This document shows, one piece after another, positions 8,605 to 41,091 of a stretch of DNA of 41,091 nucleotides. The stretch comes from Acidilobaceae archaeon (GTDB lineage: Archaea; Thermoproteota; Thermoprotei_A; Sulfolobales; Acidilobaceae), in the NCBI GenBank assembly GCA_026985385.1, contig JALSQM010000062.1, positions 1 to 41,091 of the forward strand. The letters run 5' to 3'. Each line of letters begins with the position of its first letter. The stretch's first letter is position 1. Position numbers and translations under genes: made by a program. The notes beneath the pieces were generated by a model, which saw only the letters and a program-made list of their open reading frames with translations, was not told where the DNA came from and did not search any database.

Positions 8605-9099
8605 GTGTCAGCCGGGGCTGGATGGGGGTGGGTGTCAGGGGCGGGGCACACCGCCTTGGGTGAGCGCCTGGTTGAGGGTACCATCATAGTTATTGACCTC
8701 GACAGGTTCGAGGAGGAGGTTAGGAGGAGGGGCTGGAGCGAGTGGAGGCCCAACGAGGCCACGGGCCTCCTAAGCAGCCTCGTCGAGTGGCTGGCCCGCA
8801 AGTGGATGGGTGTTGTGGTGTATGGGCTCGACTGGGATAGGGGCACTGAGGAGGCCGTCATAGAGATACCCCTAGTCGAGCCCTGGGAGGTTGAGGGGGA
8901 CCTCAGGAGGATCCTGGAGGCCCTGAGGAGGGAGGCCGGCGTCACGGCGACGGCCGTGGCGCTCAGGGGCCCCGTGCTGGCTAGGCCTGCTAGGAGTAGG
9001 AGGGAGGCCTACCAGGGGACACCCGCGAGGAGGGAGGCCTGGAGGATCCTGAGGGAGGCTAAGAGGAGGGGTGGGGGGCGCCTCATAGTTGTGGGCTAG
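8605..9099 (+). CDS. Hypothetical protein, possibly a degenerate nucleotidyl-cyclase-like fold
   Basis: GTIIVIDLDRFEEEVRRRGW...LVEWLARKWMGVVVYGLDW has a GGDEF-like first strand/helix pattern; fold is inference only. Start may be the GTG near 8659-8664. Confidence 0.5.
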   Translation: MSAGAGWGWVSGAGHTALGERLVEGTIIVIDLDRFEEEVRRRGWSEWRPNEATGLLSSLVEWLARKWMGVVVYGLDWDRGTEEAVIEIPLVEPWEVEGDLRRILEALRREAGVTATAVALRGPVLARPARSRREAYQGTPARREAWRILREAKRRGGGRLIVVG

Positions 9100-38438: not shown

Positions 38439-40217
38439 GTGTGGCGCTTGGAGGACCTGCCCAGGGTCATAGAGGAGGTGTTTTCACTCGTAAACCTCGA
38501 CCTCTACGGGGTAGCTGGGGTACTGGAGGGTGATAGGCTCCTAGTCACAGCCTTTAGGGAGGGGGCCTCGAACGTCTACGCATACACGCCTGAGGAGGGC
38601 CTCGTCAAGCTGAACAGGGAGCCGGTCTCCATGGTGGCCGAGCCGCCCAGGGGTGCTGGGAGGGTCGTCATAGCGAGGGACGTGGCCCGCGGCAGGGAGC
38701 TGCATAGGGCCTTCATAGCCTCCCTCGAGAGCCCCGGGGAGGAGAGGCCCTTAGTGGAGGGTCTCGAGCCCATGAGGCTCCTATCCCTGGTGGATAAGGG
38801 CGACAAGGTGTACCTCACGGGCGTCACCCCCGATGGCGTGGGGGTCTTCGAGGCTAGGCCTGGGAGTGATGCGAGGCGCGTCGGCCTAATACCGGGCCTC
38901 GGGGCCCTAGAGGATGTCGCCGGCAGGGTGGGTGTCGGCATAATATTCCAGCAGACGGGGAGGATCCCACTCTTCACCATAGACCTAGACTCCGGCGAGG
39001 CTAGGATCGTTGAGACGCCGGGTAGCGTCACGGCTGTGAGGGCGAGCCCCGAGGGCTGGGTTGCACTCGGCGTCGAGGGGGCTAGGGAGGCCGGGCTCTA
39101 CCGCTTCGACCCCGAGACCGGTAGAGTCGAGCCTCTAGAGCTAGCTGGGAGGGGCCTCAGGGAGTACAGGCCTACGATGATATCGTACATAGGATTCACG
39201 GGCAGGGGAGAGGCGGTCGTCGTAGCCTGGAGGGGTGTTAGGAGTAGGGTTTTCCTAGATGGGGACCCAGTCGAGGGCCCCGAGGGGGGCTATGGCCGTG
39301 CATACGACTGGAGGGGAGGCCTGGTAGCCACCTACACCAGCCTGAGGAGGCCCCACAGCGTGGTACACCTCAAGGATGGGAGGGCCGTGACCCTCCTCTC
39401 AGACCGCCTCCCCGACTGGCTCGAGGAGGCCCTCGGCGATGTTAGGGTCCACGACGTGGAGGCCCCGGATGGTGAGAGGGTTCCAGTAATAACGCTGGAG
39501 TCGAGGAGAGCCGGGAGACCAGGACCTACTGTTGTACACGTCCATGGCGGGCCCTTCGCGGCGGACGTAGACGCCTGGGGCATCTTCGCGGCGGCACTGG
39601 CCCTCGCCGGGTTCAACGTTGTAATGGTAAACTACAGGGGCTCAATGGGCTTCGGGGAGGAGTGGAGGAGCAAGATCATAGGGGATCCATGCGGGGCCGA
39701 GCTAGACGACATAGTAGCAGCCGCCCGCTGGGCCCGGGAGAGCGGCCTAGCATCCTATACCGCCATCATGGGCTACAGCTACGGCGGCTACATGACCATG
39801 TGCGCCCTAACCAGGAGGCCGGGCGAGTTCGCCGCCGGGGTAGCCGGTGCGAGCGTCGTCGACTGGGAGGAGATGTACGAGCTAAGCGACCCCGCCTTCA
39901 AGGCCTTCATAGAGCTGCTATTCGCCGGCGACAAGTCGAGGTGGCGGGAGAGGAGCCCCATAACACACCTAGACAACCTACGAGACCCGCTCTGCATCAT
40001 ACACCCCCAGAACGACTCGAGGACCCCCCTAAAACCCGTGCTACACTTCATGGAGAAGGCACTCGAGAAAGGGAAGAGGTTCGAGGCCCACATAGCGCCC
40101 GACATGGGCCACGCGGTAAACACAGCCGACGACGTAGTAAAAATACTACTACCAGCAATAATATTCCTATATAGGATCAAGACCGAGAGAGCCGCCGGAA
40201 CCCAGGAAACCAAATAA
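38439..40217 (+). CDS. Prolyl oligopeptidase-family (acylaminoacyl-peptidase-like) serine peptidase
   Basis: PTVVHVHGGPFAADVDAWG, NVVMVNYRGSMGFGEEW, AIMGYSYGGYMTMCALTRRPGEFAAGVAGASVVDW, HPQNDSRTPLKP, APDMGHAVNTADD. Confidence 0.93.
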   Translation: MWRLEDLPRVIEEVFSLVNLDLYGVAGVLEGDRLLVTAFREGASNVYAYTPEEGLVKLNREPVSMVAEPPRGAGRVVIARDVARGRELHRAFIASLESPGEERPLVEGLEPMRLLSLVDKGDKVYLTGVTPDGVGVFEARPGSDARRVGLIPGLGALEDVAGRVGVGIIFQQTGRIPLFTIDLDSGEARIVETPGSVTAVRASPEGWVALGVEGAREAGLYRFDPETGRVEPLELAGRGLREYRPTMISYIGFTGRGEAVVVAWRGVRSRVFLDGDPVEGPEGGYGRAYDWRGGLVATYTSLRRPHSVVHLKDGRAVTLLSDRLPDWLEEALGDVRVHDVEAPDGERVPVITLESRRAGRPGPTVVHVHGGPFAADVDAWGIFAAALALAGFNVVMVNYRGSMGFGEEWRSKIIGDPCGAELDDIVAAARWARESGLASYTAIMGYSYGGYMTMCALTRRPGEFAAGVAGASVVDWEEMYELSDPAFKAFIELLFAGDKSRWRERSPITHLDNLRDPLCIIHPQNDSRTPLKPVLHFMEKALEKGKRFEAHIAPDMGHAVNTADDVVKILLPAIIFLYRIKTERAAGTQETK

Positions 40218-40255
40218 ACCCTAACAACTCGTCAAGCATCAAACGGAGGAGGCCG

Positions 40256-40333
40256 GGGCCCGTCGTCTAGCCTGGTTAGGACGCCGCCCTCACACGGCGG
40301 AGGTCCGGGGTTCAAATCCCCGCGGGCCCACCA
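40256..40333 (+). tRNA. tRNA-Val (anticodon CAC), CCA encoded
   Basis: GGGCCCG...CGGGCCC-A-CCA acceptor, D arm GTCT/GGAC, anticodon arm CCGCC-CTCACAC-GGCGG, T arm CGGGG-TTCAAAT-CCCCG. Confidence 0.97.
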
Positions 40334-40431
40334 ATAGACACCAGCTCTGCTATCTCTTCGACGGTTATCTAAGACGATAAAGGGTTAAGAGCCTCGAGTA
40401 CCGTTTAAACCTATGAGGAGGGAGACCGCAA

Positions 40432-40644
40432 TTGACCGTAGACAAAGCGGAGCTTTTATACAGGGAGCTACGTGAGTTAAGGACTATACTAGAACGTATC
40501 GAGGCCCTATTAGAAGAGCGACTTATCGGCATCGAAGAACCCTTGCCAGACGAGGCTGAAGCAATAAGAGAGTACGAAGATGAGAAAACGAAGGGAAAAG
40601 TAGAGCTTGTTGATTTAGAGGACGTCCTTAGGGAGCTAAAATGA
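40432..40644 (+). CDS. RelB-like antitoxin
   Basis: Small acidic protein overlapping (ATGA) the downstream RelE-like ORF; TTG start with TTTAAACC promoter-like box upstream. Confidence 0.75.
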   Translation: MTVDKAELLYRELRELRTILERIEALLEERLIGIEEPLPDEAEAIREYEDEKTKGKVELVDLEDVLRELK

Positions 40645-40907
40645 CGAGATATAACATCAATCTTACTAAAAAGGCTTTAAAGCAACTCAGCGAGCTTGAC
40701 GAGCCACTTAAAGGTAGGATTCTTGAAGCCCTAGTTATTCTGCGAGACTATGGCTTTTCCGGAAGACTTGACATTAAGAAACTACGTGGTTACAGGAATC
40801 ACTACAGGATTCGTATAGGCGAGTATAGAGTTCTGTTTGAACTAGAAAAACCTAACAAAATAATAGTATATGCAATACTTCCTAGAAAGAAGGCTTATAA
40901 GAGATAA
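40641..40907 (+). CDS. RelE/ParE-superfamily toxin
   Basis: YNINLTKKALKQLSELDEPLKGRILEAL...IKKLRGYRNHYRIRIGEYRVLFELEKPNKIIVYAILPRKKAYKR is a RelE core. Confidence 0.92.
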   Translation: MTRYNINLTKKALKQLSELDEPLKGRILEALVILRDYGFSGRLDIKKLRGYRNHYRIRIGEYRVLFELEKPNKIIVYAILPRKKAYKR

Positions 40908-40955
40908 GATATGGTTCTCGTTGTGAAACCGTCGCTTCATGCATATCTGATGGTA

Positions 40956-40979
40956 AATGATATCACTTTAGATATCATT
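40956..40979. repeat. Inverted repeat AATGATATC-ACTTTA-GATATCATT
   Basis: Perfect 9-bp arms, 6-nt spacer. Confidence 0.75.
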
Positions 40980-41041
40980 GTTGCTATTACTTTTAGAGTA
41001 CATGCATATAGCTAGTATGAACTCTTGTATATCTTTGCGTT

Positions 41042-41083
41042 CTCACACGGCGGAGGTCCGGGGTTCAAATCCCCGCGGGCCCA
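41042..41083 (+). repeat. Duplicate of tRNA-Val(CAC) 3' half (putative attR)
   Basis: Identical to 40289-40330; diverges on both sides (41041 T vs C; 41084 T vs the C of CCA). Confidence 0.9.
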
Positions 41084-41091
41084 TCACCTAA

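Follow-up and report, generated by a model that had tools for sequence, protein, structure and literature searches.

How did a second 3' half of a tRNA gene come to lie 753 nt behind an intact copy, with a toxin-antitoxin (TA) pair in between? This question is raised by the right-hand end of the window analysed here, a stretch of 41,091 nucleotides which constitutes the whole of contig C62 of an Acidilobaceae metagenome-assembled genome (MAG; G000, 64% complete). Positions 40289-40330, within the gene for tRNA-Val(CAC), are identical to positions 41042-41083 over 42 nt (spacing 753), and the bases immediately outside the repeat differ on both sides (left GCCGCC / TGCGTT, right CCAATAGAC / TCACCTAA). 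When one mismatch is allowed, the repeat grows to 45 nt and runs through the CCA end (40289-40333 / 41042-41086); the contig stops 5 nt further on. As ARAGORN places the anticodon at 40291-40293, the repeat covers the tRNA from the first of the 7 nt in the anticodon loop through to the discriminator A40330. The interior (40334-41041) has a GC content of 40%, compared to 63% in 38439-40255. An earlier note on this DNA had described precisely such a duplication around an AT-rich interior, and both observations, including the limits of the repeat and its differing neighbours, were recovered upon recomputation. Elsewhere in the same genome, a tRNA-Pro(CGG) gene with a 32-nt intron (G000:C53 12120-12229; L013 2121-2230) has a 3' end that matches tRNA-Val exactly over 32 nt.

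Table. Features at the right-hand end of the window (coordinates are those of the whole stretch; RE, right-end segment).
Feature	Coordinates	Strand	Basis and remarks
tRNA-Val(CAC), intact, CCA encoded	40256..40333	+	ARAGORN; integration target, attB side / attL of array
attL core, tRNA-Val 3' half from first anticodon-loop base to discriminator base	40289..40330	+	42-nt exact repeat
Cassette left end with its own leader	40334..40431	+	direct sequence reading; TATA-like TTTAAA 40404-40409, GGAGG 40417-40421
RelB-like antitoxin, 70 aa, TTG start	40432..40644	+	cargo family F4, 16 cassette units
RelE/ParE-family toxin, 88 aa	40641..40907	+	PF05016 E=8.2e-9; overlaps antitoxin gene by 4 bp
RE, putative arm-type attachment sequence	40936..41041	+	26-sequence alignment; R1 model E=5e-28 here
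TGCATAT, first direct copy in RE	40940..40946	+	conserved in alignment
GATATC pair in RE	40959-40964, 40971-40976	+	near-invariant alignment columns
TGCATAT, second direct copy in RE	41003..41009	+	sequence reading, alignment
Diverged third motif copy TGTATATC in RE	ends 41033	+	sequence reading, alignment
Distal tRNA-Val 3' half (attR or inter-cassette att)	41042..41086	+	42 nt exact, 45 nt with one mismatch
Contig tail TCACCTAA, probably left end of next cassette	41084..41091	+	short match, inference

The two interior genes resemble a RelBE type II TA pair. Judged by sequence, the toxin has a RelE/ParE fold (best PDB matches MjRelE3, 3BPQ, E=6e-7, and aRelE, 1WMI, E=5e-5), and its homologues in other genera of the same family are 82-95% identical in amino acids, with adjoining DNA that aligns as well. 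In the case of the 70-aa reading frame, no Pfam or other family match was found above cut-off, so its antitoxin role rests on its position and on its co-occurrence with RelE. Toxicity and neutralisation are likewise inferences. The leader, for which a promoter function is inferred, is also found in the RelBE cassettes of G028 and G017. The earlier note had named this pair as the only plausible genes of the interior, which holds; it had overlooked a conserved non-coding segment of about 105 bp next to the 3' repeat, which is the key to the locus.

This right-end segment (RE) lies just before the tRNA half and carries repeated TGCATATC/GATATC motifs, namely three copies of TGCATATC and two of GATATC. 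Its approximate consensus is CATGCATATC-TGATGGT-nnTTGATATC-n-TTGATATC-CTTGnTGnTATT-TTTTTGGATTACATGCATATC-nTnATATGAATTnTTGCATATCTnTGTGTT / CTCACACGGCGG. The arrangement of the motifs resembles that of arm-type integrase sites, which is an inference by analogy. With 40932-41086 as the query, the non-coding segment and the tRNA-Val half were found to recur together elsewhere, often several in a row. A model of the RE built from sequence only (R1) matched 55 of the 216 genomes of the order, from no fewer than nine families, as well as a single genome elsewhere in the class. In 50 regions read in their entirety there are 78 RE copies, of which 63 lead directly into a recognisable tRNA-Val 3' half and another two are truncated by contig ends. 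An exact match of 42 nt at a tRNA 3' half, within a composite that recurs in dozens of genomes, cannot be due to chance.

Two loci with unusual RE copies may be mentioned here. In the array of G003, copies lie head to head (L083 8631-8744 on the plus and 8766-8886 on the minus strand), corresponding to one inverted unit. In the complete genome G050 (L051 7719-8617), decayed copies are accompanied by remnants of DUF433/DUF5615 and RelBE genes; an intact tRNA-Val is absent from the stretch read, so that this is possibly a relic array parted from its tRNA.

The units stand in tandem. Arrays of one to four or more cassettes were found behind tRNA-Val(CAC) genes and also behind GAC and TAC genes, with three or more units in G010, G016 and G023 and at least two in G003 and G014. 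They adjoin tRNA-Val in the complete single-contig genomes G015 and G023, and thus are not an assembly artefact, as well as in G010, G016, G003, G030 and G014. Short intervals were collected, each beginning at the end of a tRNA or at a tRNA half and reaching to the RE that follows; a few of them overlap where an intermediate half is too degenerate to be recognised. All 60 of the 60 short intervals contain a TA family from one of five recurrent type II classes: RelBE, an AF2212-like antitoxin with a PemK/MazF-like toxin, DUF433 with DUF5615, a VapB-like protein with a PIN protein, and a further pair with a PIN_2 protein (PF05016, PF02452, PF01954, PF04255/PF18480, PF01850 and PF10130). The cargo has a median length of 653 bp and varies little within a class (AF2212/MazF 643-666, VapBC 745-757, RelBE 570-604 bp). 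The DUF433/DUF5615 operon runs antisense to the array, which indicates that the common factor is the site and not the direction of transcription. Distal tRNA halves are often degenerate and individual units in other arrays do decay; first cassettes beside the tRNA often have near-perfect halves. Several MAG contigs break off at these repeats. A second cassette (DUF433/DUF5615) is present in the genome of the window itself (G000:C49 1-864; L090), on a contig that begins inside a tRNA-Val half; the gene after its distal half is one that we take to be PaREP1-like.

Whether the contents of the site change between relatives could be followed at orthologous loci. The tRNA-Val of the window is orthologous to those of G002:C46 and G003:C11 from the same genus (urocanase upstream, 95% identical in amino acids). 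At this locus, G002 carries an AF2212/MazF cassette and G003 an AF2212/MazF together with a DUF433/DUF5615 cassette. Similarly, G033 and G067 are 92.5% identical over the 3.4 kb up to the tRNA, followed by a MazF-type cassette in one and a RelBE cassette in the other. G015 and G023 have both flanks in common (84% upstream, 91-94% downstream) and different arrays between them. In the case of genus g4, where the upstream DNA of G006 and G018 is 81% identical over 6.3 kb and that of G025 70% over 1.1 kb, the occupant of the orthologous locus is a pNOB8-type integrase element (G006), a RelBE cassette (G018) or a MazF cassette (G025). The earlier note would have been refuted had all relatives carried the same cassette; sister species differ at the orthologous tRNA. 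The comparison for an empty site that it had proposed led instead to occupied loci with exchanged contents. No fully clean empty site was found among RE-free congeners, as their loci without an RE lack a comparable flank or keep a trace of a cassette (G005).

Two observations concern the surroundings of these loci. In the window, a prolyl-oligopeptidase-like gene (38439-40217) lies between urocanase and tRNA-Val, while in G002 and G003 urocanase immediately precedes the tRNA and the peptidase homologue lies at another place. In addition, no RE is present within 3.2 kb downstream of the tRNA-Val(GAC) gene of the window's genome (G000:C7 3177-3254; L012), which could thus be a vacant site.

Cassettes are also found to be closely similar across distant hosts. 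That of the window is 90.6% identical to its counterpart in G028, where EF-2 is 77.2% identical, and 87.0% to that in G017, where EF-2 is 73.0% identical; for the congener G003, EF-2 is only 83.7% identical to that of the window genome. Unit 1 of G010 equals unit 2 of G030 with 92.7% identity. Furthermore, the distal halves at the tRNA-Val(GAC) genes of G032, G018 and G014 have a CAC-type loop, a sequence feature that suggests movement from CAC to GAC isoacceptor genes.

The cassettes themselves code for no integrase; the likely helper is an integrase of larger elements. Matches to PF00589 belong mostly to a XerA-like chromosomal recombinase, and a second tier of matches adjoins tRNA genes. 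Among these is a 467-aa integrase (here type I) located directly behind tRNA-Val(CAC) in G017:C28, G006:C56, L146 and L148. It matches PF00589 and PF16795, has an R...YxxR...Y signature and is 32-37% identical to integrases of Sulfolobus and Acidianus plasmids, pNOB8 included. This signature is assigned to pNOB8-type integrases (PMC8371274), and an intact integrase gene directly behind the tRNA is the pNOB8 pattern (PMC3293823, PMC8371274). Of the two types of archaeal tyrosine integrase named in the earlier note, the likely helper belongs to the pNOB8 type and not to the SSV type.

The link between integrase and cassettes lies in the RE, which is common to all cassettes and to two integrase elements of 6.7 and 5.7 kb (G017:C28 and L148). 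In G017:C28, tRNA-Val(CAC) and the integrase are followed after about 6.7 kb by an RE, located at the contig end, which matches that of the G017 RelBE cassette over about 115 bp; the DNA upstream of the two differs. In L148, the element ends in a divergent RE (nhmmer E = 8e-8) and a tRNA half. This contig (QMQO01000041.1) comes from a MAG labelled Woesearchaeota; its integrase element is 85% identical to the Acidilobaceae type I integrase, and the contig is likely misbinned. Acidilobaceae MAGs and Candidatus Tiamatella make up most of the named relatives from the scan for this integrase.

An intact type I integrase was detected in about three of the 216 genomes, with one further fragment, which is far fewer than the cassette carriers. 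None was detected in the genome of the window, which is 64% complete and whose sole PF00589 match is XerA-like, or in its genus. Since integrase-bearing genomes are so few, supply in trans from a transient element has to be assumed and is not demonstrated. The related type II integrases (about 400-450 aa; L102 7774-9132, L104 1517-2872, L105 6015-7238, L097 13495-14286, also G018:C21) sit directly behind tRNA-Val(TAC), tRNA-Thr(GGT) and tRNA-Gly(CCC). They were considered as helpers and set aside in favour of type I, as no RE lies downstream of them in the loci read. An N-terminal type II fragment is located after the RelBE cassette in G017:C1. A search for an origin of the cassettes in viruses or plasmids also gave nothing: neither RelE nor the integrase had a match among viral contigs, nor the integrase among phages, nor the cassette DNA among plasmids, and the full RE was absent from 44 viral contigs containing a 15-nt word of it.

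Altogether, we consider it probable that 40289-41083 belongs to a family of non-autonomous TA cassettes that are mobilised in trans, insert site-specifically at the tRNA-Val anticodon loop and accrete there in tandem. Each cassette is made up of a left end with its leader, one type II TA operon, the RE of about 105 bp and the tRNA 3' half, anticodon loop through CCA. An integrase supplied by a larger element would bind the RE motifs and the tRNA stem-loop, and a circle of the cassette (about 753 bp here) would recombine with tRNA-Val by exchange at the anticodon loop. In the case of the SSV1 integrase, cleavage at the borders of this loop is reported (PMC8371274). The tRNA would be regenerated from the 3' half of the incoming cassette, the older half being displaced outward, so that by repeated insertion the array would grow from the tRNA side. 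The TA pair is presumed to stabilise the cassette against loss after excision and may also serve in anti-virus defence. Sequence comparison establishes how the site is composed, that units stand in tandem, that orthologous loci differ by exchanged cargo, that cassettes have passed between genera and that their right end is common to integrase elements. Excision and integration by the helper are inferred and have not been shown experimentally, as there is no circle, extrachromosomal copy or recombination data.

The alternative to which we give some, if limited, weight is that host homologous recombination between the RE/tRNA-half repeats does most of the shuffling and the cassettes have ceased to be integrase substrates, the arrays being fossils of old integrations that are kept by TA addiction. 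The rarity of the integrase and the many degenerate distal halves would fit with this, and archaeal homologous recombination between tandemly integrated elements is described (PMC8371274). The RE of the G017 integrase element and that of its RelBE cassette are identical, which gene conversion would also produce. However, to cross between genera and families and to reach GAC and TAC genes, a cassette would have to enter with only about 45 bp of homology. In addition, the RE motifs are conserved while cargo and left ends vary, and near-perfect halves are frequent in first cassettes beside the tRNA. Repeat-driven recombination could nevertheless explain part of the shuffling. It seems considerably more doubtful that each cassette arose by an independent internal deletion of an autonomous element, as a CIME-like remnant. 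Although both ends are common to the larger integrase elements, the same five classes of cargo, each of set length and sequence, reappear in different families, and hence the short form propagates as such.

In short units the RE always comes after the TA pair, and so it might, rather than being an attachment arm, regulate TA operons or act in them as an RNA element, and lie beside tRNA genes by chance. This is hard to credit, since the RE also ends two integrase elements without those TA pairs, its spacing to the tRNA half is fixed, and the orientation of the TA operon relative to it varies (DUF433/DUF5615 being antisense). That the tRNA was simply duplicated in tandem and one copy then lost its 5' half by decay, the TA pair close by being unrelated, finds its only support in the general presence of a tRNA fragment. 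The same 105-bp RE precedes the tRNA half in more than 60 places, the half starts at the anticodon loop and the cargo differs between orthologous loci; we regard this duplication as refuted by the recurrence of RE and half with different cargos and leave it practically no room.

The preferred reading, a trans-mobilised TA cassette, thus agrees with two of the three options that the earlier note had left side by side. A very small integrant mobilised in trans is supported by the RE and half common with integrase elements, the arrays and the exchanged cargo. The first segment of a tandem array whose integrase lies beyond the window is supported by arrays of the same units elsewhere, although continuation of the window's own array is inferred. 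The evidence supports taking these as two faces of one system. The third option, a decayed remnant, is disfavoured, because the length of the cargo, its open reading frames and the RE have all been kept in different genera. As for the continuation, the contig tail matches the sequence after the tRNA half in G014:C36 (CATCACCTAACTGG) and also cassettes in G016:C5, G035:C211, G083:C96 and G014:C42. The last bases of the window, CATCACCTAA, equal a cassette start in G014 and resemble others, which makes a further unit likely. On the basis of only 8-10 bases, the cassette in the window is probably unit one of an array that the contig end truncates. If the array continues past 41091, the next cassette would begin CACCTAACTG.

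Patchy spread of TA genes in thermophilic archaea is usually reported without a mechanism. The cassettes would provide a concrete vehicle, for which transfer unit, boundaries, target and candidate enzyme can be named. They also imply that tRNA genes can anchor growing arrays without an integrase in the cassettes, which bears on the build-up of tandem tRNA-linked islands and on the persistence of integrase-less remnants. The same holds for the role of TA pairs, which might be addiction modules, rivals for a single att site or a stock of anti-virus functions. With moderate confidence, we extend this to a broader picture in which pNOB8-type integrase and tRNA-Val anticodon loops form a distinct, archaea-specific platform for cassette capture, with a dedicated TA pool exchanged between genera and families; in archaea of the order Sulfolobales they would play the part that IntI, attI and attC have in bacteria.

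Compared to known systems, the cassettes share features with several. TA genes are known integron cargo. Integrons and CALINs, including archaeal integrons (PMC9668308), likewise consist of small exchangeable cassettes in tandem, each ending in a recombination site, with insertion apparently beside one anchor point. In the present system, however, a tRNA gene serves as the anchor, and a tRNA half is part of the site. The helper integrase scores 16.6 bits against IntI, with a cut-off of 265 (TIGR02249), the GTTRRRY core is absent at cassette ends (RE/core junction GTTCTCA), and no strong attC-like hairpin was found upon folding the DNA of both strands (z about -1.4). Membership of the integrons is rejected on these three tests. 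Integrative plasmids of the pNOB8 type (archaeal type II) in Sulfolobales share the tRNA 3'-half target (PMC8371274, PMC3293823). In the larger elements G017:C28, G006:C56 and L148, the integrase is also intact, on the same strand and directly behind the regenerated tRNA, and the window has the tRNA 3'-half direct repeat at both ends together with an intact tRNA-Val. In contrast to these plasmids, the cassettes have no integrase, replication or conjugation genes, are smaller than 1.2 kb and form arrays of interchangeable units; carrying RelBE only, that of the window is not itself a pNOB8 element.

The ssrA islands of Dehalococcoides (PMC3146451) similarly stand in tandem behind one RNA gene with 3'-end repeats and an integration module in some. 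They differ in their serine recombinase, 20-bp repeat, bacterial hosts, diverse cargo and much larger size (vcr about 12 kb). Horizontally transferred vapBC pairs are also described (PMC3718332). No description of tRNA-anchored TA cassette arrays was found in the literature searched, as far as its text was available, and an earlier one is not excluded. Most similar are CIMEs, IMEs and 'hitcher' elements, in which integrase-less DNA lies between att sites, a helper is presumed and accretion is in tandem; here too, the att sites of the window are common with integrase-bearing relatives (G017:C28, L148). What sets the cassettes apart is that the short form itself propagates widely, as a family with dedicated cargo, and is not an occasional deletion derivative. 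Overall, trans-mobilised non-autonomous elements are the closest kind.
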